From: an uncultured bacterium
Lineage (GTDB): Bacteria; Hydrogenedentota; Hydrogenedentia; Hydrogenedentales; CAILVY01
Assembly: GCA_937951485.1 (NCBI GenBank)
Contig: CALEDJ010000007.1
Span: 1 to 64,000, forward strand
DNA: 64,000 bases
Reading direction: 5' to 3'
Part shown: one piece after another, positions 17,327-30,560 of the stretch
Layout of the letters: every line of letters starts with the position of its first letter
How positions within the stretch are numbered: the first letter of the stretch is position 1
The notes under the pieces: generated by a model
The model's input: only the letters and a program-made list of their open reading frames with translations
The model's database searches: none
What the model was told of the DNA's origin: nothing
Made by a program: the position numbers and the translations under genes

Positions 17327-18196
17327 ATGGCAACCGATGCTGACGACAGGCGACCAGGCGGCTTTTCAGGGCGCTTGGGTGAGCAAAAGCGCCGAGGGAG
17401 GCGCTCTGCGGTCGCCTTTGCGCTTCCGGCACTCGCCGCCCTGCTGTCCATGGGAAACGACGGTTGCCGAATAAATCTTGCCGGACACGTCGGCAAGGAT
17501 GTGTGTCTTACCTGTCACAACGGCTATCTCGCCCCCGACCAATCGGCTTTCCCGATGAGTGTGCACCGTACCCTGGAATGTGAAGCATGCCATGGACCGG
17601 GACTATCTCACGTACGCAACGGCGGTCGTGGCGGCCTGTTCATTCGGAACCCGGCCCGTGACCCATTTCCAAAACACCATCGGTTGTGCGAGGCGTGCCA
17701 TCCGACGCAGACCCTCCAATACCTCGCAAGCGGCCATGCCACCAGCCAGACCGTCCGGTGCGCCGACTGCCACGACGTGCATTCCCATACGCCCACACGG
17801 CTCGAATTCCTGGACAATTCGCTATGCCTCCATTGCCACGCCCAAATCCATTTCACATCCGAAGCCGCAATAGAAGCGCATACCTTTCATTCCAATGATC
17901 CGGTGGGGACGGGGGCAAGTCGCTGTACCGCCTGCCACATGACGCCGCTGGACCGGGCACTGCAAGCGGCGGGGCCGCACCTGCACACGATGACCCCACT
18001 GCCGCCTCAGACCACTCTCGACGCCATTGCCGCCGGCGTTTCGCCGGCCCCTGTCAATTCCTGCGCAGGAACGGCGGGCTGCCACGACGGGTCCGTCATC
18101 ACCGCGCCGACATTTGATGTTGATAATCCCCGCCACAACCAACTGCTCCAGATTCTCTACGAAGAACGCTACGACGGTGAGCCGTCGAGCAGTTGA
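17327..18196 (+). CDS. Multiheme c-type cytochrome, 6 CXXCH plus one CX5CH
   Basis: 289 residues. AGGGAAG precedes the ATG. A hydrophobic export segment (AVAFALPALAALLSMGNDGC) follows a basic N-terminus; it might be a signal peptide with a poor lipobox or an anchor. Six heme sites are visible: CLTCH, CEACH, CEACH, CADCH, CLHCH, CTACH, plus CAGTAGCH near residue 245, an unusual CX5CH. Spaced distal His residues (GHATS, HTFHS) fit bis-His ligation. It resembles periplasmic DmsE/MtrA-type electron carriers but is shorter than the decaheme members. It is followed by an outer-membrane barrel and a 14-heme lipoprotein, so it is the likely periplasmic partner of a porin-cytochrome complex. Confidence 0.88.
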   Translation: MATDADDRRPGGFSGRLGEQKRRGRRSAVAFALPALAALLSMGNDGCRINLAGHVGKDVCLTCHNGYLAPDQSAFPMSVHRTLECEACHGPGLSHVRNGGRGGLFIRNPARDPFPKHHRLCEACHPTQTLQYLASGHATSQTVRCADCHDVHSHTPTRLEFLDNSLCLHCHAQIHFTSEAAIEAHTFHSNDPVGTGASRCTACHMTPLDRALQAAGPHLHTMTPLPPQTTLDAIAAGVSPAPVNSCAGTAGCHDGSVITAPTFDVDNPRHNQLLQILYEERYDGEPSSS

Positions 18197-18240
18197 CTGG
18201 GCGTTACTGAAACGATACGGTGATTTTGGGAGGGACAGAC

Positions 18241-19806
18241 TTGGACCTGGAGGGCAAAGGCATAGCCCGGGTGTGCCTTATCGCACTTGCCGCCTGCCTG
18301 GCGCTATGGAGCGCGGCAGGCAACGCCGCCGAGACGGATGCCGCAGAAACCGCCGGCGCGGATAAGGCCGCGGAACAACAGGCGAACACTGATCCCGACG
18401 CACCCGAAACGCCAAAAAAGAAGTGGATATCGGGCTGGTTCGAGTCCGGCATTGACGCCGCATGGGATGATCGCGAGTCCGACATTGACCTCGTTCAGAC
18501 GCTCAAATTGGACGTAACCCCACCCAGTATCCCCCGCCTGCGTTTCCGCGGCCTGTTGTGGATGAACGTGGACTTCGACTCGGACGCGCGGGGCGGCAGC
18601 ACCCTGCGCGACATCAATGACGCCTCACAGACAGCCATTCGCCCGCGCCTGTTGTATTTGTACGGCGAATACGATGACCTGTGGGGCGATTCCACCATCC
18701 GCGTGGGCCGGCAGCGGATTCTGGAAGGCGCGGCGGCAAACCGCATTGACGGCGTCTATTTCAAACAGCGACACCATGGCTGGGACTGGTATGTCTTCGG
18801 CGGCGCGCGCGCCAGCATCTATTACGATACCCACGAAGACCTGCTGGGCGGGGGCGGCGTCTCCTGGTCGCCCCATCCGAAAACCCGGCTGGCGCTCGAC
18901 GGCCACTATGGCGAAGACAATCGAAGAAAATACCCCCCGCCGCGCGGCAACCTGCTGCTGGATGCGTTTTCGCAACGACAGCCGCGCCGATTCAACTCGG
19001 AACCCCGCGACTTCCTCCTCTCCTTCAGCCTCTGGCAGCGCCTGACCGAAAATATTCAGGCATTCGGCCGTTTCAACCTGAAAGACGGCGAACCGGATCA
19101 ACTGCTCCTGCGCGTCACCGGATTTGTTCCGGACTGGAAACTAACCTATGATCTGAGTTACCAGAACCGAATGAAACGCGCCGGCGACCGCATCAACGAC
19201 AGCACCGCCTACTATCGCGTCCTCGGCTATCTCGAGCGCTACCACCATTTTACGCTTGCGCTGCACAAGGCTGTCGGCGCCAGACTGACGCTGTCATTCG
19301 AGTGGGAGGCGCATGAATCCCTGGAGGACCATTGGAAGACCGCCAACCGCGATTACCACCGGCTGGCCGCGATGGCCGCTGTGGATAACGTCGGGTGCGG
19401 CGTCAACCTGAAAGCAGGGCTGGAACAATGGATCGTGTCCGGCGACGAAGGCTCATGGGCGATCACCGGCGAAGTGGACAAAAGTTGGAAGAATGTCCGC
19501 CTGACGGCCGGCACCGCGTTTGAACGCTACCAGGACCGACTGGTCCGTTACCGGGCATGGCCCGGCGAGTTGAACCTGCTGCTGGTGTCCCTGATTCCGG
19601 GGTATTATCTGACGAGAAACCCGATTGTTTTCCTGTTTGACGACTGGGCGGTGAAAACGCACGAGAACATTTATTCCGTGTTTGTCCGAGGCCGGTGGCA
19701 ACTGACGAAAAACCAGAGCCTCCAGGCGCGCGTCACATGCGACATTGACGATGGCCCGGACGCGCCGTACTGGCGCGCTCAGGCCGGTTACAACATTCAG
19801 TTCTGA
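18241..19806 (+). CDS. Outer-membrane beta-barrel porin of a cytochrome conduit
   Basis: About 521 residues from TTG 18241 (GGGAGG stands 7 bases upstream); a GTG at 18220 is an alternative. A signal peptide (VCLIALAACLALWSAAGNAAE) is followed by an acidic linker and many alternating amphipathic strands, with the recurrent barrel motif IRVGRQRILEGAAANRIDG. The last residue is Phe in AGYNIQF, the C-terminal signature recognised by the BAM complex. It has no heme sites and lacks the CXXC of Shewanella MtrB. Lying between two multiheme cytochrome genes, it is best read as the MtrB/OmbB-type barrel that lets cytochromes pass electrons across the outer membrane. Assignment by context, not by family match. 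Confidence 0.78.
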   Translation: MDLEGKGIARVCLIALAACLALWSAAGNAAETDAAETAGADKAAEQQANTDPDAPETPKKKWISGWFESGIDAAWDDRESDIDLVQTLKLDVTPPSIPRLRFRGLLWMNVDFDSDARGGSTLRDINDASQTAIRPRLLYLYGEYDDLWGDSTIRVGRQRILEGAAANRIDGVYFKQRHHGWDWYVFGGARASIYYDTHEDLLGGGGVSWSPHPKTRLALDGHYGEDNRRKYPPPRGNLLLDAFSQRQPRRFNSEPRDFLLSFSLWQRLTENIQAFGRFNLKDGEPDQLLLRVTGFVPDWKLTYDLSYQNRMKRAGDRINDSTAYYRVLGYLERYHHFTLALHKAVGARLTLSFEWEAHESLEDHWKTANRDYHRLAAMAAVDNVGCGVNLKAGLEQWIVSGDEGSWAITGEVDKSWKNVRLTAGTAFERYQDRLVRYRAWPGELNLLLVSLIPGYYLTRNPIVFLFDDWAVKTHENIYSVFVRGRWQLTKNQSLQARVTCDIDDGPDAPYWRAQAGYNIQF

Positions 19807-19830
19807 TCGCAGGCGGGAGCATTGAAACCC

Positions 19831-20862
19831 ATGCGTGAACGTTTTAAAGGGAGTGAACGGCTGGCCGCAGGCGTGCTGATATGCCTGCTGCTGGCGGCTT
19901 GCGCGACATTGACGACCATGAAGTTTGGCCGCGGCGGCGACCGCGGCATCCAGTTCCCGCATGCAAAGCACGCCGAAGAAGGCATGGACTGCACAGATTG
20001 CCACGCCATTGAGGGCGCGCGCGCCGCCATGCCCAATCATGACATCTGCGGCATCTGCCATGAAATTGATGAGGATAGTGCGGACAAAAAAGCCTGCGGT
20101 CAGTGCCACACCCGACCTGAACAACTGGTAACCCCGCGAAAACAACTTCTGCGCGACGAGGTGCTGTTCTCCCATGAAGTGCATGTCGCCCAGGAAATAC
20201 ACTGCGCCACCTGTCACCCTGCGCCGGATAAATCCGCCCTGCCCAAAGGACCCCTGAAAAAATTCTGCATGGATTGCCATGAGAAAAATGACCCCGCCCT
20301 CAATGAATGCTCGGTGTGCCATCAGGAAATCAGAAAAGACAAAATTCCACTGTGGCGCAGCGGCGCACGGATAGCGCACGATGTGCCCGCCGTATGGGAA
20401 AAAACGCACGGACAGGAATTTCGGCACGATCAGGCCTATTGCGGGTTATGCCACGACGACCAGTCCTTCTGTGACACCTGTCACCAGACCACCCCACCCA
20501 GTGACCACACCCTTGCCTGGCGCAGAAAGCCGCACGGGCTGCGCGCCCGCTGGGACCGCGAGCGGTGCGCCGCATGCCACGATGAGGACTCGTGCTGGAA
20601 ATGCCACCGCAATACGGAGCCTGCCTCGCATCGCGGCGCTTGGGGACGACCACTCAACCACCACTGCGCCAATTGTCATTACCCACCCCAGGACACGGGT
20701 TGCGCCACCTGTCATATCAGCATCGAGCATAGAAAGGCAAAGCCCTCGCCACATATCCTCGGCATCTATCCGACCAAATGCGGCGTCTGCCATCCGGGCG
20801 GCAACCCGTTCCGTGCCCCGCACCCGATGAATAGTACGACTACTTGCACAACCTGCCACTAA
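19831..20862 (+). CDS. 14-heme c-type cytochrome lipoprotein
   Basis: 343 residues. ATG 19831 is used because GGGAG is then 11 bases upstream; a TTG at 19822 is too close. The lipobox LLAAC marks a lipoprotein. I count 14 CXXCH sites: CTDCH, CGICH, CGQCH, CATCH, CMDCH, CSVCH, CGLCH, CDTCH, CAACH, CWKCH, CANCH, CATCH, CGVCH and CTTCH, the last being the final residues of the protein. That is one heme per about 25 residues, a wire-like density. With the barrel upstream it forms an OmaB-OmbB-OmcB-like trio as in Geobacter, where the lipoprotein cytochrome faces the outside. Alternative: periplasmic face of the conduit. Confidence 0.88.
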   Translation: MRERFKGSERLAAGVLICLLLAACATLTTMKFGRGGDRGIQFPHAKHAEEGMDCTDCHAIEGARAAMPNHDICGICHEIDEDSADKKACGQCHTRPEQLVTPRKQLLRDEVLFSHEVHVAQEIHCATCHPAPDKSALPKGPLKKFCMDCHEKNDPALNECSVCHQEIRKDKIPLWRSGARIAHDVPAVWEKTHGQEFRHDQAYCGLCHDDQSFCDTCHQTTPPSDHTLAWRRKPHGLRARWDRERCAACHDEDSCWKCHRNTEPASHRGAWGRPLNHHCANCHYPPQDTGCATCHISIEHRKAKPSPHILGIYPTKCGVCHPGGNPFRAPHPMNSTTTCTTCH

Positions 20863-21525
20863 GTTGCGCCATTTCATAAATCCAATGACATATCAGAGCC
20901 GTCTGAGTGACATCATCTCACCGTCATTGTGATCCCCCTGCCACCTTCGGCGGCGATTCGCAAAAAAAAGTGTGTCATGCTTTGGCCGACTGAAATTGAG
21001 TTCAATGGCTCTTTCCTATTCACCCTGTGCAAACCAGAAACTTCTGATTGCGCCTTTTTGTGCTGCGGCCAGAACACCCCGGACGAAAATCGGACATTGG
21101 CCGGTGGTATCGCTGCGCTCAACCACCGGCCAATGTCCTGCACCCCTCCGGGGTTCCTTGGAATCGCCGTCAAAAGCGTACACAAATACTCTGCAACGGG
21201 GATATCTACTGAACACCGAGTTTCATTTGTCCAAAATGTTGCGAAAGTGCATCCGCTTTCTTTTACGAATCGCCACGGAAAGTGGCATGGAACTCACAAT
21301 GACGGGATTATGTCTATGTTCTATATGAAATATGTCTCTGTATATTTATGTAATTATATATTTGGTATGGACTCCATCCCAACAGTGGAGCGGCGAAAAG
21401 CATCCGCGTGGGCTGGATGATGAGATGCAAATCCAGCACGCTGACGTACATTTCCGGGGACGGCAGGGGCGCGCACGCATTACGTGCCTGCGCGCCCCAT
21501 AACACATTTCCGGCAGGGAGGCGAA
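20863..21525. other. Convergent intergenic region with 17-bp-arm palindrome
   Basis: 663 bases between the ends of the two cytochrome arms. Bases 21092-21108 (GGACATTGGCCGGTGGT) pair perfectly with 21122-21138, leaving a 13-base loop containing CGCTGCGCTC. A second hairpin (21466-21479 with 21485-21498, GGGGCGCGCA arms) lies just past the end of the decaheme gene. Both could stop converging transcripts, but neither has a clear T-run. I see no gene here. Confidence 0.6.
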
Positions 21526-23841
21526 TCAGGGGCCCAGATTGTGGATGGTCTGGACCGCTCGCGCTCTCCCCTGGCCATGGCATACCGCACACGATTCCAC
21601 GCCGTTCTCCGTATCCGACATCAAAATCGCATGAATATTCGAGAGAGGATGATCGTGGCATGAGGTGCAGGCGGCCCGTTCGGGCAGGATTTGCGTGACC
21701 GTAATCGTATTGTCAATCACGGTTGGCAGCGCCTCGTCGGCTACGGGAACACCGTAGGTGCCTTCAAAATGACATATTGTGCACTGCCGGCGATCGCCGG
21801 GGAAGCGCACATGCGTGAAATCATACACCGTTCCCCGGCTGCCGATTACGGTGTAAGGCATAGTGAGGTTTTCACCCGTGTGGATACGATGGATCATATC
21901 TTTGAAGTTGACCGTTACCGCATCGGCCACCTGCCTGAGAGGCGTGCTGTTGTCCCGGCCTGCGAGATCCGCCTGGTGTGTATGGTGACACATAAGACAA
22001 ACCGCGACACCGACGCGTCGCGTTCCATGGGCGCGAACCTCGCCGTGGCATTGATTGCAGCGGTGCTCATCCACGACCTGACGGCGGTGGACAGGTTCGC
22101 TGCCGTCCACCGTGAAAACCGTGTAGCCGTTCGTCATGGTTCCCTGCTGGTACTGCGCAGCGCCGATCATGAACCGCACACGCCCCTGCAACGCGACGGC
22201 GTATGTGACACCGCCACCCGGCGCCGGCGCGCCGAAAGTGTAGCGATACAAACCGTCACCGAGATTGAATAACCGCGGCGAAGCAGGGCCGGCGCCCACA
22301 AAGGTTTCCGCAACATTGAACTGAAACTCAGGGACGGGCCATGCGAGAATAGCCCCCACCTCGGCATTAAATCCCGCCAAATCCGAGACAGGAACTCCAT
22401 TGCCGTCCGCCGCGCTGAATTGAATGCTTATCGCAAGGCCGTCTTCGGCCATATCCGCAAAGACACTGACAATGTCCAGGGCGAGACCGGGGCCTTTGTT
22501 GGCTTCGATGCCATGGCTCTCCAGGATGGGGGACACGGCCGGGGCGGCAGGCCGGTGGCAGGTGGAGCACAGGCTGTCGTTGGGCTGCTCGAAGTCAAAC
22601 GGGTGATTGTGGTATCCGGCGGGCGTTGCCCAGGGATTGCCGAACCAGATCCGATCATGACAGGAACCGCAGGCGGCGCGCGTCGGGCGCGTCAGATAGG
22701 CATCCGCATGTGGGGCGTCGCGATGGCACGTGGTGCAATTGCGCACGTCCTGCGGGAAGCGCACCGTCGAATAGTCATGCACGCTGTTCTGGAACCCAAT
22801 GAGCCGATAGGGCGTTCCCTGCTGCACGCTGGGGAGATTCTCGCCCATGTGAATCTTGTGCACCATTACGGCCATATCCACCGTGTTTCCGGTATCGGGG
22901 TCAACGCTCTGGGGGTTGTGGCAGACGATGCAATACTGAAATTCGCGCCGGGTGCCGTGCAGTGACAGGCGCGTGTGGCAGGAGTTGCAGACCGCCGTGG
23001 TGGAAATTTCCCGCGTCTGGGTAACCGGCTGGCCGTCTGGCCGAAACGCGCTTACGGCATTGGCGTTGTAGACAGTATTCGTGACGAGGTGCCGCCGCTG
23101 GAATTGCCCCGCCAACTGATGCGTGGCTGCCGGATTGTAGCCCGCCGGAAGCGCGCTTTGAAATCTATACGTAAAAGACCCATCGGGATTCTTCGTGACG
23201 CCGTTGATCCGGGCGGCGTCGAAGGTGGCCTGCATAACGTTGTTGACGATATAACTCGTATAATGCGGGCTGACTGGATGGTCGTTGAGGTACGCCAGCA
23301 CAAAGCGCAGGTCGGTGAATTCAGCCAGGATGAGGGGCTTACCCAGATTATCTGTCGCCTCAAAATGTACAACCGGCCTCAAGTCCGCTGGAATGTTCAC
23401 CGACTTGATGGTGATATTGAGGCCGGGCGCCAGTGCGGGAATCTCCGGTGCAACGACTTCACCCTCGCCTTCCCCTTCCCCTTCGCCCCCCCCTGGCTCA
23501 GTTGGCACGGAAATCACCGCTTTGCCGACGGCGCCGCTCACATTCCCTGTGGCCCGGATCGTTGCCGTGCCGGACCTTATCGCCCGCAGAATCACCGCCG
23601 TGCTCTTCGCCACTTCCACGCGCGCAACCGCTTCATTGCTGGATGTCCACGTGAATGCCGTGTCCGCCGCCGAAGTGGATTCGGCAAAGAGTTCGATGGT
23701 CTGGCCCACTCCCACCACCGCATAGGCAGGGACCACCGTCACCGTTATTTGCGCAGGCGGCGGGCATCCCCCCATCCCCAGCGCTATTGCGATGCCCAGT
23801 AGCGCAAGCACTCCCTTTTTCACATGGCCTAATCTCATCAT
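21526..23841 (-). CDS. OmcA/MtrC-family decaheme surface cytochrome lipoprotein
   Basis: About 771 residues. The start is ATG 23839-23841 (or the next ATG), with AGGAGGA directly upstream. The lipobox is GMGGC. Residues about 30-105 form a BIG2-like Ig domain (TVVPAYAVVGVGQTIELFAE), then a Gly-Glu repeat linker, then the OmcA/MtrC layout: domain I, five hemes (CNSCH, CIVCH, CTTCH, CGSCH, CSTCH), a second beta domain, five hemes (CNQCH, CLMCH, CTICH, CTSCH, CAVCH). Repeated VHKIHMGENLP and IHRIHTGENLTMP blocks are hallmarks of this family. Known members sit on the cell surface and reduce metals, electrodes or partners. The Ig domain plus linker is an extra stalk not found in Shewanella MtrC. 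Confidence 0.92.
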   Translation of the reverse strand: MMRLGHVKKGVLALLGIAIALGMGGCPPPAQITVTVVPAYAVVGVGQTIELFAESTSAADTAFTWTSSNEAVARVEVAKSTAVILRAIRSGTATIRATGNVSGAVGKAVISVPTEPGGGEGEGEGEGEVVAPEIPALAPGLNITIKSVNIPADLRPVVHFEATDNLGKPLILAEFTDLRFVLAYLNDHPVSPHYTSYIVNNVMQATFDAARINGVTKNPDGSFTYRFQSALPAGYNPAATHQLAGQFQRRHLVTNTVYNANAVSAFRPDGQPVTQTREISTTAVCNSCHTRLSLHGTRREFQYCIVCHNPQSVDPDTGNTVDMAVMVHKIHMGENLPSVQQGTPYRLIGFQNSVHDYSTVRFPQDVRNCTTCHRDAPHADAYLTRPTRAACGSCHDRIWFGNPWATPAGYHNHPFDFEQPNDSLCSTCHRPAAPAVSPILESHGIEANKGPGLALDIVSVFADMAEDGLAISIQFSAADGNGVPVSDLAGFNAEVGAILAWPVPEFQFNVAETFVGAGPASPRLFNLGDGLYRYTFGAPAPGGGVTYAVALQGRVRFMIGAAQYQQGTMTNGYTVFTVDGSEPVHRRQVVDEHRCNQCHGEVRAHGTRRVGVAVCLMCHHTHQADLAGRDNSTPLRQVADAVTVNFKDMIHRIHTGENLTMPYTVIGSRGTVYDFTHVRFPGDRRQCTICHFEGTYGVPVADEALPTVIDNTITVTQILPERAACTSCHDHPLSNIHAILMSDTENGVESCAVCHGQGRARAVQTIHNLGP

Positions 23842-24040
23842 TTCCTCCTCCTGTCGCGTGTTCAGCGGTTTCCAACACCCTGATCTGATATAAAGGCTTT
23901 GACAAAAAGAATACGTTGAAGCGGGGTACAAAACATCAGGAAAAAATACTGAATCGGCGCAAATGAACCCGGTACTCTTGCGCTGTATTCCCCACTGCGG
24001 CGAACAGGGACACCCGCTTGGGGGCGGAAATTCGGCGGAG

Positions 24041-25465
24041 TCACTGTATCTGCAGGTCTTCGAGGATTTTCGGTTCGGTTTCATCCCAGGCAAGAACCGT
24101 ATGGCAGATTGAACAGTCGCCGCTGATGGTTTCTCCCGTTTCCGTGACCAGGTTGTCATTATGACACCGGGTGCATCCGGGCCAATGCAAATGGCCGATA
24201 TTGTTGGGATAGGTGCCCCATGTGACTTTCATGTCCGGAAAAACGTTTCTCTTGTAGATTCGAACCAGTTCGTCCGTCGCCTTGTCCACTTGCCCTTTAT
24301 TGGCGGCGTAGAAATCCGGGTGATTCTCACGGTAGTACAACTGCACGCGCTCGACTATATGCTTGAGGTCCCCCGCATCTCCCCTGGCCTCGACGAGGGC
24401 TTCCGTCCCCACCTTCTTGATATATGGGATGGAACGATCAATACGCCGCTTGGCCAGCGCCTCATCCACAGCCTCGTCGGGCATTTGGAAAATGTGCGTG
24501 GGCCGGTTGTGGCAGTCAATGCAGTCCATGACGCGTTCCTTGCCGGTGGGAATCTCAGCGTCCCTGGCCTTGAATTCCTGCACCGTACCGTCGCCTTTTT
24601 CCACGCGGACATAGGCGATCTCCTGGCGGCTGTCATCCGTCGGGATGTAGTTGGTGCGAATGTCGGGGTCTATGTGCCAACTATGAATGCCGTGGCGTTC
24701 GCTGGCCCCTCCGCCGATGTGCATCAACAGGACCGTCTTGATCGGCGTATTCTCCTCGTCTTCGAGGAATTTGGTGATCACCCTGACACGGTCGCCGGTG
24801 AATTTCTCCGGCCAATGGCATTGCTCACAGGTGTCCTGCGAGGGACGCAGGTTTTCCACGGGGGTGGGAATGGGACGATGGTAAGTGCCCAGGGTCACCG
24901 CGATGACCTGCCCCAGTCCTGAAAGTTTTGAACGCACGAACCAAGGTGCACCGGGGCCGATATGACATTCCACGCATTTGACGCGCGAGTGCGGAGAGCC
25001 GAGGTAGGCGGTATGTTCCGGTTCCATCACCGTGTGGCAAACGGTGCCGCAAAACATCACCGAGTCCATGAAATGAACCCCATGATAGGTCACGGTGGAG
25101 ATGATGAGGAGATTGACCGCAGTCAGGACAGTCACGAGAAAAGCGGCCCGCCGCGTACTTGGATTATTCAGATCAATCACCGGAAATTGTGCAGCGGCAG
25201 CGGGCTGCGTTTCGCCTTCACAGCGCCTGCGCCGGCGATCCCACCACGCGCCCACGGGAATCACCAGCAGTCCGGCAACAAAAACTGCGGGAAGTATCAG
25301 CAACGCCATGATATCAAGATATGGGGAGACTTCCGTATCGGTGAAACCCAATAAAAGAAAACCGATAATGCAGATGGCGCTTGCTGTGGTCAATGCCGAT
25401 CCAAACAGGGTGATCCAGTTGCGGCCAAACAATGTGGCAATCACAGCCAACCAACGGTTAAGCAT
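24041..25465 (-). CDS. NapC/NirT-type membrane multiheme cytochrome (quinol dehydrogenase)
   Basis: 474 residues. ATG 25463-25465 has AGGAG upstream. Hydrophobic helices lie at about 15-45, 50-70 and 105-125. Heme sites: CGTVCH (CX3CH, the usual first site in this subgroup, within MFCGTVCHTVMEPEHTAY), CVECH, CEQCH, CIDCH, CTRCH and CSICH, so six in all. NapC/NirT proteins take electrons from menaquinol or ubiquinol in the inner membrane and hand them to periplasmic cytochromes (CymA does this in Shewanella). In this operon it is the probable entry point for the electron route to the surface. Confidence 0.9.
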   Translation of the reverse strand: MLNRWLAVIATLFGRNWITLFGSALTTASAICIIGFLLLGFTDTEVSPYLDIMALLILPAVFVAGLLVIPVGAWWDRRRRRCEGETQPAAAAQFPVIDLNNPSTRRAAFLVTVLTAVNLLIISTVTYHGVHFMDSVMFCGTVCHTVMEPEHTAYLGSPHSRVKCVECHIGPGAPWFVRSKLSGLGQVIAVTLGTYHRPIPTPVENLRPSQDTCEQCHWPEKFTGDRVRVITKFLEDEENTPIKTVLLMHIGGGASERHGIHSWHIDPDIRTNYIPTDDSRQEIAYVRVEKGDGTVQEFKARDAEIPTGKERVMDCIDCHNRPTHIFQMPDEAVDEALAKRRIDRSIPYIKKVGTEALVEARGDAGDLKHIVERVQLYYRENHPDFYAANKGQVDKATDELVRIYKRNVFPDMKVTWGTYPNNIGHLHWPGCTRCHNDNLVTETGETISGDCSICHTVLAWDETEPKILEDLQIQ

Positions 25466-25512
25466 ATGACCATCTCCTTTCGTTCCGCGCAGCAAGTTGC
25501 TCGAGAAAGCGT

Positions 25513-28500
25513 TTATTGTTCCACGGCCCCGTCAACCTCCGGACTGATTTTCCACCCCAGCCCTGTCTTGTCCTCCCATGTCCACACCGCCGCCCCCAAC
25601 AACAGGACCAGTCCCTGCGCAATGTAAAACCCCAGCAGGGCGCCGTAGGTGCCGCTGGAAAACCCATAACTGTGTAGTCCCACGCCCAGCAAATTCACCC
25701 CAAACCATGCGAACGCGGTAATCACCCCGCTGAAGATCGCCGCCAACGAGACGCCGAAATCCTTGAGGTATCCCCCATACCGGGCATGAAAAACTGCCAG
25801 TTGCCACAGCACAATCATCAGCGCGCCGTTCTCCTTGGGGTCCCAGCCCCAGAAACGCCCCCAACTCTCGTTGGCCCATATGCCGCCGAGAATGGTCCCC
25901 AGCATCGTGAAAAGCAATGAAAAACACAACACCCCGTATATCATGCGCGTGAGTTGACGATAGAAAGAAGGATCCTCGTGATGGACGCGCAGCGCGCGTC
26001 CAAAGACATAGACGTGCGCAAGGGCGCTGGCCAGAAAACTCGCGCCGTATCCCATGATAATTGTCGTGACATGCGTGGCCAGCCAGAAATTGGTGTCCAG
26101 TACCGCCACCATGCTGGGCATCGTATCCACCCCTTCCCGGATTTCATATTTTGCAGCCAGGAACATGCCGGCCGTTCCCAGTAGGGATGCTACCGCCAGC
26201 ACAATCCGCCGCCGGTGCACATACTCCATGAACAGCGCCACCGCCACCGCGACGAACGCCGTGAACAAAATCGTCTCATAGAGCGTCGTCACCGGCGGGC
26301 GTCCCCGAATCACACTGCGCATGGCGATCCCGCCCGCCAACAGAAACGTTGGCAGCAACACCGACAGAAAACCCGCCGCGTACATGACGCGGTGACGCGG
26401 CAGGAGCCAGGAAAAAGTGACCATGAAAAAGGACATCACAAACAACACGAGGCTGTAGTAGAAGGGCTGGAGCCGGTTGTACGACACCTCCAGAGTGATC
26501 TTTGGATGCTCTTCGCGCAGCGCCGCAAGCCTTGTTGCGGCGGCATGAAACGGCGCCAGGTTGGCCTGGACCTTTTCAGGACCATCGGCCTCCATGGCCG
26601 CTTTTTCCAGCAGCGAAAGCAAATAGAGGCTTTCATCCAGCGATGCAGTTTCACCGCTGAAGGCTGCATCGGTGAGGGATTCGGGCGTGAACCATTCTTT
26701 GTCCGCGCGTTCCGCGGGCGGGGGGATAAGCCGCAACGCAGCCGAAGCGCCAACCTGTTCCTGCACCGCCCGTATGTAATCGAGCATGCGTTGCTTCGCC
26801 TCGGAGGCGGCCTGCGCCGCTTCCGCGTCGCCGGGCGTCTGGCGGGCCTGTCGTATCTCCTCGATAATCCGGGGGGCCATTTCCAGCATCGCATGCAGCG
26901 GCGGCCGTTCCTGTTCCGGGAACAGCGCCGCGATCGGCGTATCCGGGGGAATTGCCACCGGGGCGCGCGCAAAGGCCAGGTAGTCGCACAGCCGCTCAAA
27001 TTCGAGAAGATTGTGGGCGAGGTGGATGACCTGCCGCTGCACGGGGTTGCGCTGTTCCCCGGGAATCCCGGAGTATTGCCGGGCAAGGCTGATCATCCGA
27101 TCGCGCACGGGCGCCAGTTCCACATAGGCGTATCGGCCCCGCTTCTTTTCGGGCGACATGCCCAGCGCCACGATCACGTCGTCGTTGTCTATGCGGAATG
27201 TCTTGTATTTTTTCGCGCGCTCCGGGAAGAACAGGCAATCCGCCAGCCACTCTATCGGCGTAATGCGCCGGCCTTCGAGATTGACGGTGCGCCGCATGCC
27301 GTTGAACCGGAGCAGGCGTACATTGGCCACTGTGTCGAGGGGTTTGATTCGACCCTCATCCAGTACTGGAAGCGTTGCCAGAAAGTGCAACGTGTCTCGC
27401 TCCCAGTGATGTGTTTCCTGTGCCGCATGCACCACGCCTGCCCCCTCGACGAGGCCCATCGCAATCCCCCATGCGACCACGACCAGACGCACCGCCGCCA
27501 GCGTCGCCTCCCGGCGTAAATAGCCGACCAATTTCTGCACGAAATGCACCGTCAGACCAACCATGATAATGATGCAAGCATAAAGGGGGAATTGGTCGGC
27601 GGGATTGCGCACCACGGCAAACACGGAATACAGGCGGGTGCCGGGCGGCGCATTTTCCGGCCCCCACGATGATTGATACAGCGTGTAGCCGTGCTCGCGC
27701 AACGGCTGATTCATCGTGATCATCAGGTCCTGGCCGACGCCCTGTTCGATCTTCGTCACTGCGCTCATGAAAACCTTGGGGATTTGCGTTCCCGGATACA
27801 GTTCCCGGGTGAATTGGTTCAGCGCAACCGTGAAAGGCAATTGCCAGCGCCGCCGCCGCAATTCGAACACCCAATCGCTTCCGGCAGCATGCAGCATGAG
27901 CGGGAGTTCCGCGCCGGCCCAGACAATTCCCTTCGACCCCGGCTCCGACTGCCCCTCCAACAGCGCCACATAGACGCCCGGCAGGGCGCGCCCCCGATCG
28001 CCGCGCGGCAACGGCTCCAGGTAGAATCCGTCCACAATCGGCGCGCCTGGCGCGCTGGCCCCGGTGAGCGGCCTGGGCTGGGCGTTCTCCATGAACTTTG
28101 AAACATGCAGATCGAACGGAAGCCCGTCAATGTGGTACCGCACGCCCCTGAAAGACCAGGCGTCCCGGAGTTCCTTGTCGTGGATGACATACTCCGTCGC
28201 CGTTTCTCCCATCCCGGTTTCAATAAGGGCCAGTTCCCACTCGGTGTAACTTTCAAACATATCCGACCGCTCGCCCTCATGAAGTTTGAGATAGCCGCTG
28301 ACCGAATATTCATAGGTGATAAAACCGCCCACCAGCAGAATGAGAATGCCGGCATGGCCGATGAGAATGCCGAGTTTGGACCAACCCTTCCGCGCGCGGA
28401 TGATTCCGCCCAACAAAAGATTCACGAAAAGCACCGTCAGCAGCAGATAGGCGCCCGGCAAGGGCGCCGGCATCACGCCAAAAGCGTAATGAATGACCAC

Positions 28501-28683
28501 AAAGGAGTTGAAATAGCGCTGCTGCGCCTCGTACAGCCCGTATTCCGTCTGGTAAAGGGTGCCGAGATAGGTCAACAGCAGGAGCAGCAGCAGCACAATG
28601 CAGGCCAGCCCGCTTGAAGCAAGGAATCGGTAAAGGTTTCGCGCCAGATTGACCAATGGAATCACTCCGGCCTGCTGCGGCAT
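25513..28683 (-). CDS. ccsBA: Fused ResB-CcsA cytochrome c synthase (CcsBA)
   Basis: About 1056 residues. The N-terminal part is ResB/Ccs1 (four helices with a large periplasmic loop: LARNLYRFLASSGLACIVLLL, WSKLGILIGHAGILILL). A long soluble insert (about 430-730) is followed by CcsA, with the heme-handling WWD motif WGRFWGWDPKENGALM. It exports heme and attaches it to CXXCH motifs outside the inner membrane (system II). It overlaps the upstream lipoprotein gene: ATG 28681-28683 overlaps by 22 bases and a GTG at 28663-28665 overlaps as GTGA; either may be the start. Its place inside the cytochrome operon suggests it matures these 4- to 14-heme proteins. Fused CcsBA is known from Helicobacter and Bacteroidetes. 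Confidence 0.92.
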   Translation of the reverse strand: MPQQAGVIPLVNLARNLYRFLASSGLACIVLLLLLLLTYLGTLYQTEYGLYEAQQRYFNSFVVIHYAFGVMPAPLPGAYLLLTVLFVNLLLGGIIRARKGWSKLGILIGHAGILILLVGGFITYEYSVSGYLKLHEGERSDMFESYTEWELALIETGMGETATEYVIHDKELRDAWSFRGVRYHIDGLPFDLHVSKFMENAQPRPLTGASAPGAPIVDGFYLEPLPRGDRGRALPGVYVALLEGQSEPGSKGIVWAGAELPLMLHAAGSDWVFELRRRRWQLPFTVALNQFTRELYPGTQIPKVFMSAVTKIEQGVGQDLMITMNQPLREHGYTLYQSSWGPENAPPGTRLYSVFAVVRNPADQFPLYACIIIMVGLTVHFVQKLVGYLRREATLAAVRLVVVAWGIAMGLVEGAGVVHAAQETHHWERDTLHFLATLPVLDEGRIKPLDTVANVRLLRFNGMRRTVNLEGRRITPIEWLADCLFFPERAKKYKTFRIDNDDVIVALGMSPEKKRGRYAYVELAPVRDRMISLARQYSGIPGEQRNPVQRQVIHLAHNLLEFERLCDYLAFARAPVAIPPDTPIAALFPEQERPPLHAMLEMAPRIIEEIRQARQTPGDAEAAQAASEAKQRMLDYIRAVQEQVGASAALRLIPPPAERADKEWFTPESLTDAAFSGETASLDESLYLLSLLEKAAMEADGPEKVQANLAPFHAAATRLAALREEHPKITLEVSYNRLQPFYYSLVLFVMSFFMVTFSWLLPRHRVMYAAGFLSVLLPTFLLAGGIAMRSVIRGRPPVTTLYETILFTAFVAVAVALFMEYVHRRRIVLAVASLLGTAGMFLAAKYEIREGVDTMPSMVAVLDTNFWLATHVTTIIMGYGASFLASALAHVYVFGRALRVHHEDPSFYRQLTRMIYGVLCFSLLFTMLGTILGGIWANESWGRFWGWDPKENGALMIVLWQLAVFHARYGGYLKDFGVSLAAIFSGVITAFAWFGVNLLGVGLHSYGFSSGTYGALLGFYIAQGLVLLLGAAVWTWEDKTGLGWKISPEVDGAVEQ

Positions 28684-29837
28684 GCTTTGGGGATATGAAG
28701 GGACCGGGAAAACGCCGCAAAATTTTCCTGCTCCTGCAGTACAGCCTCGCGTGGCCCCGTCATCTTGACGAAAAGCGTCTGTTCCGGAACGGTGGCAACA
28801 ACCCCAAGCAGCATCCAACCCGGGTGCGTGATACCGTCCATGCCGGTGAATGCGCCTTCAACGGCGACCATGTGCGCGGCGCGTCCCATGATGTCAATCC
28901 TGGGGAGATTCGCAATCTCCTCGTCGGTCAGCGCCTCCTGGCCCATCTCTGCGCGCCACCGGTTGATGTTCGCCGCAAGGCCGCCCGCCTCGCCCGGCAG
29001 CAATGCAATGTAACATTCGGCGTTTTCCGCGTCCGGCAGCCCAAAACTGACCGCGCGCATCGGCTTGTCGGGCAGACGTTTCCAGGATGCCGGCGCCTCC
29101 CACTGCAACGTGCCGGAGAACGGCGCGCCGCCCGCGGCGGTCCTTACGGGACCCCCTCCGCTATCCTGGAGCGAGACAGAAAAGGCAATGAAATTCCCGC
29201 GTTCCTGCTGGAGGATTTCCTCCGGCCCGGTCATTTTCAGGAACACGGTGTCATCTTCCCGCTGCAAAATGGCGCCCAGAAGCGCATACCCTTCCCGGAT
29301 GTCGCGTGCGGGGGCATGAACGTCGTCAACCATGCCCCCAAAGGACCCCTTCAAATCCACGAATACGGCTTCCGCGCCGAGCAGCGGTATCTTCGGCAAC
29401 TGCGCAATGGTTTCCGGATCGGCTTCCTCCAAGCCCATTTGCGATCGCCAACGGTTTACATTGAGTGCAACACCCCCGGCGGGGCCGCCCAGAATCGTCA
29501 CATAGCACTCCGCTTCCCCCGCCGGCCCGATGCGGAAATTCGCCAGGCGCAAGCCCGTTGCGCCCGCGTCCTGCCATCCGGGCGGGGTCTGCCACGATAA
29601 CGACGATCCCGGCGCAGAAGTAAAACCATCCGAAGACGCGGGCGAGAAGCCAAAGCGTTGCGCGCTGGTCGGCGCGCCTGCGGGGAAAAACGCCGAACGC
29701 TCGACCGTGCGGATTTCACTGACAGTGCGCGGCTGCTCGCCGCCACAGGACGTCAATATCAAGGCGCCACTCAACATCGCTGCGCCCACCACGCGCACCG
29801 GATACACGCGCCATTTCCAGGATATTCCGCAATTCAT
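28662..29837 (-). CDS. Lipoprotein with a tandem-duplicated domain, CcsBA neighbour
   Basis: 391 residues from ATG 29835-29837 (a GTG at 29843 is also possible). Signal peptide and lipobox ILTSC. The mature part is two copies of one domain of about 140 residues: copy 1 runs from about 80 to 220, copy 2 from about 235 to 382. Shared blocks are WQTPPGW/WEAPASW, AECYVTILGGPAGGV/AECYIALLPGEAGGL, NVNRWRSQMG/NINRWRAEMG, FVDLKGSFGGM/MVAVEGAFTGM and TVFLKMTGPEEIL/TLFVKMTGPREAV. I do not know a named function. Sitting directly ahead of and overlapping the cytochrome c synthase gene, it may assist heme delivery or apocytochrome handling, but that is inference. Confidence 0.82.
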   Translation of the reverse strand: MNCGISWKWRVYPVRVVGAAMLSGALILTSCGGEQPRTVSEIRTVERSAFFPAGAPTSAQRFGFSPASSDGFTSAPGSSLSWQTPPGWQDAGATGLRLANFRIGPAGEAECYVTILGGPAGGVALNVNRWRSQMGLEEADPETIAQLPKIPLLGAEAVFVDLKGSFGGMVDDVHAPARDIREGYALLGAILQREDDTVFLKMTGPEEILQQERGNFIAFSVSLQDSGGGPVRTAAGGAPFSGTLQWEAPASWKRLPDKPMRAVSFGLPDAENAECYIALLPGEAGGLAANINRWRAEMGQEALTDEEIANLPRIDIMGRAAHMVAVEGAFTGMDGITHPGWMLLGVVATVPEQTLFVKMTGPREAVLQEQENFAAFSRSLHIPKACRSRPE

Positions 29838-29957
29838 CTTCACAAATTGTCTGGCTTTCCGCCGCAGACGGCTTGAAGGCGTGGCCCGAAGAACCGGTTC
29901 ATCAGGTTACGGGGCAAAGACACGCCACAAATGAATGCTGCGGTTTCCAAGGGCAGA

Positions 29958-30560
29958 CTATTTCTTCTCTTTGCCCGGAATCGAATGCTCTATTTTTTTC
30001 CACGCCTGTTCATAATCGAATCCAGTTTTCGTGCCGTCTTCGCGTGTGTATCGCTCAGGATTCCACGTCGGACTTTCCTCGTTGTGACATCTCCGGCAGA
30101 CGTTCTCATCCGCACGCGTCATGTGGGCCGACATGTCCACCGACGTGTCCTTTTTCATCTTAAATGCTTGACCGTCCTTAACATGGAGCGATGCCGGGCC
30201 ATGGCACGTCTCGCATTGAACGCCGTCCTTCATGGCGATCTTGGCGGGAAGCGGCGGATCCTTTTCGGGGTTGTACGCCGTCACATGGCAACGCAAACAT
30301 TCCGGCGCTTCCTGGGGCGGCTTGCCCAGTCCCTTCTTTTCCGCAACCTCTTTGGCCTCCGGGCTTCCGAGCATTTCGTATGCCTTCGCGTGTTTCTTGG
30401 TGCTCCAAACGTTCCAGATTTCCCCCTCTTCCTTTTTGTTGTGGCATATCTTGCATTGCGAATGGCCCACATATTCAGGCCCTTCGACCGCATACGCCGG
30501 GACACTTGTGCAAACGACACTCAACAAGAACATCACTGCAATCATTAGTCGTCCGTCCAT
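29958..30560 (-). CDS. Tetraheme c554-like periplasmic cytochrome
   Basis: 200 residues with a cleavable signal peptide (MIAVMFLLSVVCTSVPAYA). Four heme sites: CKICH, CLRCH, CETCH, CRRCH. The blocks YVGHSQCKICH, WSTKKHAKAYEML and CETCHGPASLHVKDG are those of the cytochrome c554/c-prime family. It lacks a membrane anchor, so it is a soluble periplasmic carrier, a good shuttle between the NapC-type protein and the outer-membrane conduit. It is the first gene of the minus cytochrome arm; the 297 bases upstream hold no gene and I see no clear promoter there. Confidence 0.9.
   Translation of the reverse strand: MDGRLMIAVMFLLSVVCTSVPAYAVEGPEYVGHSQCKICHNKKEEGEIWNVWSTKKHAKAYEMLGSPEAKEVAEKKGLGKPPQEAPECLRCHVTAYNPEKDPPLPAKIAMKDGVQCETCHGPASLHVKDGQAFKMKKDTSVDMSAHMTRADENVCRRCHNEESPTWNPERYTREDGTKTGFDYEQAWKKIEHSIPGKEKK

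Follow-up and report, generated by a model that had tools for sequence, protein, structure and literature searches.

How could a bacterium of the uncultured phylum Hydrogenedentota pass electrons from quinol to an acceptor outside the cell? The question is raised by eight open reading frames (ORFs), lettered A to H in window order (17327-30560), in a 64 kb stretch (the window) of a 179 kb contig from the 4.55 Mb assembly of an uncultured Hydrogenedentota bacterium. Three plus-strand genes (17327-20862) converge with five minus-strand genes (21526-30560), and all eight ORFs of the two convergent arms described in the original prediction were present at the positions given there. That prediction took the locus for a trans-envelope electron conduit, and the gene set and its families, the barrel prediction, co-occurrence, linkage and the lack of a detectable MtrB in the phylum support this view: we consider it likely that these genes specify a chain by which Hydrogenedentota carry out outward extracellular electron transfer. 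It is of the porin-cytochrome (Pcc) kind, with parts of known families recombined and shared through the phylum, a combination that we did not find described for Hydrogenedentota.

In the topology that we propose, E, an inner-membrane cytochrome of the ImcH type, would take electrons from quinol, and the tetraheme c554-like H would ferry them through the periplasm. A Pcc-class complex, in which the 22-strand barrel B would sheathe a multiheme wire (the 14-heme C being the likelier candidate), would carry them across the outer membrane, with the MtrA-like, seven-heme A docking at one face of the complex. The decaheme D would then pass them to an outside acceptor such as Fe(III) or Mn(IV) minerals, humics, an electrode or another cell. 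Heme loading would depend on F (CcsBA) and probably G.

The cytochromes contain 39 CxxCH motifs (A, 6; C, 14; D, 10; E, 5; H, 4), together with one CxxxCH (CX3CH) in E and one CX5CH in A, so that the predicted total of some 40 hemes over 13 kb holds as a motif count. Because the rest of the window holds only isolated single CxxCH motifs, the cluster is far from chance. Chance ORFs or chance motifs were rejected on grounds of conservation.

Conservation of the gene set

We surveyed 68 Hydrogenedentota genomes (38 of high quality, 44 genera). Barrel B was found in 29 of them, including 19 high-quality genomes and 23 genera, and G051 adds a contig-edge barrel fragment beside A. The named loci with this barrel were all from Hydrogenedentota or Hydrogenedentes except L068, which is titled Nitrospiraceae and was placed by genome search in the order of the window organism. 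An OmcA/MtrC decaheme over the model cut-off was present in 27/68 genomes and a close homologue of E in 30/68. B and D occurred together in 24 genomes, B only in 5, D only in 3 and neither in 36 (Fisher p 1.6e-10); for B and E the numbers were 26, 3, 4 and 35 (p 2.9e-11), these p values ignoring shared ancestry and being read together with linkage. E was present in all 27 genomes with D. The set had been proposed as characteristic of the lineage, and its distribution agrees with that proposal.

Besides the neglect of shared ancestry in the p values, several points weigh against an outward conduit made by these genes. Full-length D was lacking in five barrel genomes, with a fragment in G053; these, like the three without E, were mostly drafts. 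The H-G-F-E-D block and the barrel lie on different contigs in G004 and G002. The single-chain AlphaFold model of C reached a predicted local distance difference test (pLDDT) of 52.5 and a predicted template modelling score (pTM) of 0.38, and no fold claim was drawn from it. The papers found record no metal-reducing or electrode phenotype for Hydrogenedentota.

The outer-membrane barrel

Is the 528-residue B a barrel large enough to hold a cytochrome? AlphaFold2 run on an alignment of 26 sequences (35-53% identity to the window copy, with the last residue, Phe528, invariant) gave a model of pLDDT 78.9 with 22 strands within residues 70-527, a barrel predicted to be large enough. VIA-align of residues 67-528 of the model matched TonB-dependent receptors and pilus ushers (Z near 19), the matching receptors being 22-strand barrels; the matches listed also include OprD-type porins and AlgE, and the lack of MtrB among the listed rows proves nothing. 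As judged from the model, the likeness to receptors and ushers is that of a common large-barrel fold, not of kinship. TonB-dependent receptors and ushers have 22-24 strands and accommodate plug domains or folded pilins. Since barrels of the matched fold hold such domains, B would in principle be wide enough for a cytochrome.

The B profile had no match among PDB sequences. With PF11854 (MtrB/PioB), the window B had no match, 2/26 homologues matched only at E values of 0.0018-0.01, and none of the 68 phylum genomes had a match at an E value of 0.001. The identification of B as MtrB was rejected because it has no PF11854 match and its predicted strands number 22, not the 28 predicted in MtrB. 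Because no MtrB/PioB was found in the 68 genomes, D has no known candidate barrel other than B. In the published Pcc class, barrels of 18-22 predicted strands pair with cytochromes of 5-14 hemes, and for MtrB 28 strands are predicted (PMC4245776); B, with 22 predicted strands and neighbours of 7 and 14 heme sites, falls within the Pcc description.

Cytochromes A and C

Two cytochromes adjoin the barrel, and either might be the wire within it. A matched the DmsE (58 bits against a cut-off of 192) and GSU2203 (68 bits) decaheme models only partially and well below cut-off, and with 6 CxxCH and one CX5CH it is not a decaheme MtrA. All 26 sequences, the window copy and 25 homologues, share the CX5CH motif (C246-X5-C252-H253, with D254 next), possibly a seventh heme site of non-standard spacing that CcsBA would need to handle; no paper on CX5CH was found in the open-access literature. 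Cys47, ahead of the hemes, is also invariant in 26/26 homologues, and A is a probable lipoprotein, the window context (GNDGC) being a non-canonical lipobox. C carries a lipobox-like cysteine in 25/28 homologues (LLAAC in the window copy).

Outside the phylum, 13 searched genomes contained distant barrel relatives (E values 1e-5 to 3e-16). The immediate neighbour of the barrel in at least 9 of the 13 was a C homologue with 8-14 hemes (most 10-14), and no A orthologue adjoined these barrels. In Anaeromyxobacter and Kuenenia, the cytochromes of two-gene Pcc clusters have 338-344 residues and 12-14 hemes and are proposed to span the barrel alone (PMC4245776), and C equals them in length and heme number. 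Because C is the constant neighbour of distant barrels that lack A and has this size and heme count, we regard C as roughly twice as probable a wire as A. The original prediction of a 14-heme lipoprotein agrees with the heme motifs and the lipobox-like cysteine, while a surface placement gives way to C as more likely the barrel's own wire.

The arrangement that survives best beside this one is the same conduit with A, carrying 7 hemes, inside the barrel like MtrA in MtrB, and C as an outer-surface lipoprotein as in the OmaB-OmbB-OmcB model. It would explain why the best match to the A profile is MtrA of the MtrABC structure (6r2q_A, E value 4e-21), and the lipobox-like cysteine of C and the A-B-C order across Hydrogenedentota are consistent with it. 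We consider it rather unlikely, given the non-phylum barrels flanked by C homologues and the resemblance of C to cytochromes thought to span barrels alone. Moreover, the invariant cysteine is a property of A too, and in G020 (L042 2-1288) a 21-heme protein stands ahead of the barrel in the place of A.

Other large multiheme proteins also adjoin the barrel, in L038 (5564-10706, 11 and 19 heme motifs), L053 (9279-11228, 11) and L054 (7625-9592, 11). In other phyla, pairs of a barrel and a C-like protein are flanked by very large cytochromes (L143 8283-11309, L149 3768-7400 and L139 1-2548, with 16, 13 and 19 heme motifs). G024 has two A-B-C copies (L040, L059), whose A proteins contain 6 and 8 CxxCH, respectively; this genome has no OmcA/MtrC decaheme over the cut-off and no E homologue.

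Inner-membrane cytochrome E and the direction of electron flow

E (474-484 residues) has three hydrophobic helices, a CX3CH shortly past the third helix and five CxxCH, making six heme sites; the helices were counted by simple hydropathy, and the counts vary among homologues. CX3CH was found in 24/24 E proteins compared and five CxxCH in 23/24, the exception ending at a contig edge. ImcH homologues have three N-terminal helices, an adjoining CX3CH and 5-9 CX2CH, and CymA has a single membrane helix and carries four to five hemes (PMC6295460). Other ImcH homologues are 31-49% identical to the Geobacter protein. By its sequence, E has the anatomy of ImcH, a likeness judged against the published description. 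A CymA-like assignment was rejected because E has three helices and six heme sites. E had been called a NapC/NirT-type six-heme quinol dehydrogenase and likened to CymA; the domain and the six heme sites were borne out, and the anatomy is that of ImcH instead.

ImcH homologues are implicated solely in quinol oxidation, and a survey found no mtrAB-type conduit adjacent to imcH (PMC6295460), for which reason the position of E beside a barrel conduit is notable. As ImcH is known only in quinol-oxidising roles, outward flow is the better guess. We regard it as improbable that the conduit runs inward, with Fe(II) or another outside donor reducing quinone or feeding an oxidase. Mtr-type conduits do work in both directions in other bacteria (PMC6295460), Cyc2 homologues are reported in some Hydrogenedentota metagenome-assembled genomes (MAGs) (PMC9769843), and the window genome encodes a heme-copper oxidase COX1 (G000:C17:22739-24067, E value 1.6e-148), so that the organism can probably respire oxygen too. 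The ImcH anatomy of E speaks against inward flow, as does the membership of D in the OmcA/MtrC family, since mtr clusters for Fe(II) oxidation tend to lack mtrC (PMC4245776). In the COX1 survey, conduit genomes were not separated from others, and eight of them had no COX1 match (G003, G004, G005, G020, G043, G045, G056 and G062), a lack that also counts against inward flow.

Decaheme D, tetraheme H and the two modules

D scored 392.6 bits with TIGR03507 (OmcA/MtrC; cut-off 209.3) and contains two PF22113 stretches in addition to Big_2, which with its 10 CxxCH places it in the OmcA/MtrC family. H matched PF13435 (cytochrome c554) at 65.5 bits.

The locus consists of two modules, A-B-C and H-G-F-E-D. 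A-B-C stays together in nearly all relatives, and H directly follows C in many. D and E lie near the barrel in about half of the relatives, D being inside the fetched stretch in 15/29 barrel genomes and in the contig-edge case G051. All eight genes stand on one strand in G063 (L041; A-B-C-H-F-G-D-E), and H-G-F-E-D occurs in window order in G014, G004 and G002 (L155-L157), with F as two overlapping genes. The two arms thus do occur together in relatives, about half of them. What relatives conserve is the gene content and the two blocks; the convergent layout is incidental.

Just as improbable as inward flow are two independent neighbours, namely a conduit of A-B-C alone and a separate H-G-F-E-D system whose D does not use barrel B. 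Such independence fits the separability of the blocks in G004 and G002, and also G001 and G042, where D is present but no barrel was detected. It is hard to square with the strong phyletic co-occurrence of B and D, with physical linkage in about half of the genomes and the single-strand run of G063, or with the finding of no MtrB in the phylum to serve D. A single chain of two modules remains our preferred reading.

Synthase F and its companion G

F matched PF05140 (53.5 bits) and PF01578 (81.4 bits), both over cut-off, and as a ResB plus CcsA chain it is a CcsBA, while its score with TIGR03144 (117.9 bits) was under the cut-off of 187.6. At least 12 genomes show F linked to E, D or H. A second CcsBA pair lies on contig C11 of the window genome (L060 4203-7994), with a G-like lipoprotein ahead of it and no multiheme cytochrome genes beside it. 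In a CcsBA tree made by a quick method, the window F groups with linked copies, those of G058 and G045, apart from the C11 copy; linkage requires four changes across the tree, so that the linked copies cluster but do not form one clade. The locus had been described as self-contained with its own cytochrome synthase. Self-containment is too strong, the arms being on separate contigs in several relatives, and ownership of the synthase is likewise put too strongly, because CcsBA is linked in only part of the relatives and a second CcsBA with a G homologue exists elsewhere in the genome. Most relatives encode CcsB (ResB) and CcsA in two overlapping genes (L035, L056, L060, L155-L158), but the window and L041 have them fused in one chain.

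The two halves of G share 34% identity over 159 residues, an internal duplication. Because G travels with CcsBA both within and away from the locus, an accessory role in maturation is more likely for it than a place in the wire.

Gene inventory

The features of the locus are listed in Table 1. Likely start refinements are ATG 19831 for C, ATG 25465 for E, ATG 23850 for D, which is preceded by a Shine-Dalgarno-like AGGAGG, and ATG 28683 for F, giving a 1056-residue protein whose gene overlaps the end of G. In Pfam and NCBIfam scans, B and G were without any family match. A tblastn search of C and E against plasmids gave no match.

Table 1. Genes of the proposed conduit locus, in window coordinates
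Gene	Position	Strand	Description
A	17327..18196	+	MtrA/DmsE-like multiheme cytochrome, 6 CxxCH and invariant CX5CH; probable lipoprotein
B	18220..19806	+	Outer-membrane beta-barrel, 528 residues, 22 predicted strands, no Pfam/NCBIfam family
C	19822..20862	+	14-heme cytochrome, c7/c3 type; constant genomic partner of the barrel
D	21526..23850	-	OmcA/MtrC-family decaheme outer-membrane lipoprotein, N-terminal Ig-like (Big_2) domain
E	24041..25495	-	Inner-membrane NapC/NirT-domain cytochrome (PF03264), ImcH anatomy
F	25513..28818	-	Fused CcsBA (ResB + CcsA) cytochrome c synthase
G	28662..29843	-	Lipoprotein, two copies of one domain; presumed cytochrome-maturation accessory
H	29958..30560	-	Soluble periplasmic tetraheme c554-like cytochrome

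Comparison with known systems

In the open-access literature we found no report of such a conduit for Hydrogenedentota, only Cyc2 mentions and passing references, and a report may exist elsewhere. The locus gives an uncultured phylum, known from sediment, soil and groundwater MAGs, a concrete and testable candidate route of respiration to extracellular acceptors in roughly half of its genera. It is quite possible, and we put it forward tentatively, that Hydrogenedentota have a conduit class of their own, with a 22-strand barrel family, a 14-heme wire, an MtrA-derived seven-heme lipoprotein with an obligate CX5CH heme, an ImcH-type quinol oxidase and an OmcA/MtrC decaheme without any MtrB. If so, OmcA/MtrC surface cytochromes would be modular across unrelated barrels. 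Here the barrel that accompanies an OmcA/MtrC-family decaheme is not MtrB, and the conduit adjoins a quinol oxidase of the ImcH type, so that the usual searches, with mtrCAB or ombB/ext models, could overlook or misinterpret such loci. Profiles of the barrel and the 14-heme protein can locate similar loci in other phyla, where distant pairs of a barrel and a multiheme cytochrome occur.

The mixture of Shewanella-type and Geobacter-type parts noted in the original prediction was confirmed as an OmcA/MtrC-family D with a barrel of Geobacter (Pcc-class) size. Compared by description with the Pcc systems (OmbB-OmaB-OmcB and ExtABCD of Geobacter and the two-gene systems of Anaeromyxobacter and Kuenenia; PMC4245776, PMC6148476), the locus has a barrel of the same 18-22 strand class, one or two 5-14-heme cytochromes beside it, at least one of these a lipoprotein, and its C has the two-gene length and heme number. 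It differs in that no curated family covers B, that A is an MtrA/DmsE-like seven-heme protein with CX5CH, and that an OmcA/MtrC decaheme is attached. With MtrCAB of Shewanella it shares a D over the OmcA/MtrC cut-off and, in A, a distant relative of MtrA; however, MtrB/PioB gave no match in the 68 genomes, B has 22 predicted strands instead of 28, and A has 7 heme sites instead of 10. Like ImcH of Geobacter (PMC6295460), E combines three N-terminal helices, a CX3CH beside the membrane domain and a NapC/NirT-like part, but it has five CxxCH, whereas the Geobacter protein has six (5-9 elsewhere), and it adjoins a barrel conduit and a decaheme. F joins ResB and CcsA in one chain as in System II CcsBA but lies, together with the duplicated-domain lipoprotein G, inside a conduit locus. 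According to a 2025 survey, Desulfobacterota alone combined Mtr, Omc and Pcc genes, and mtrC at times stood in an operon with cytochrome biogenesis genes, away from mtrAB (PMC12133095); the H-G-F-E-D block resembles these operons.

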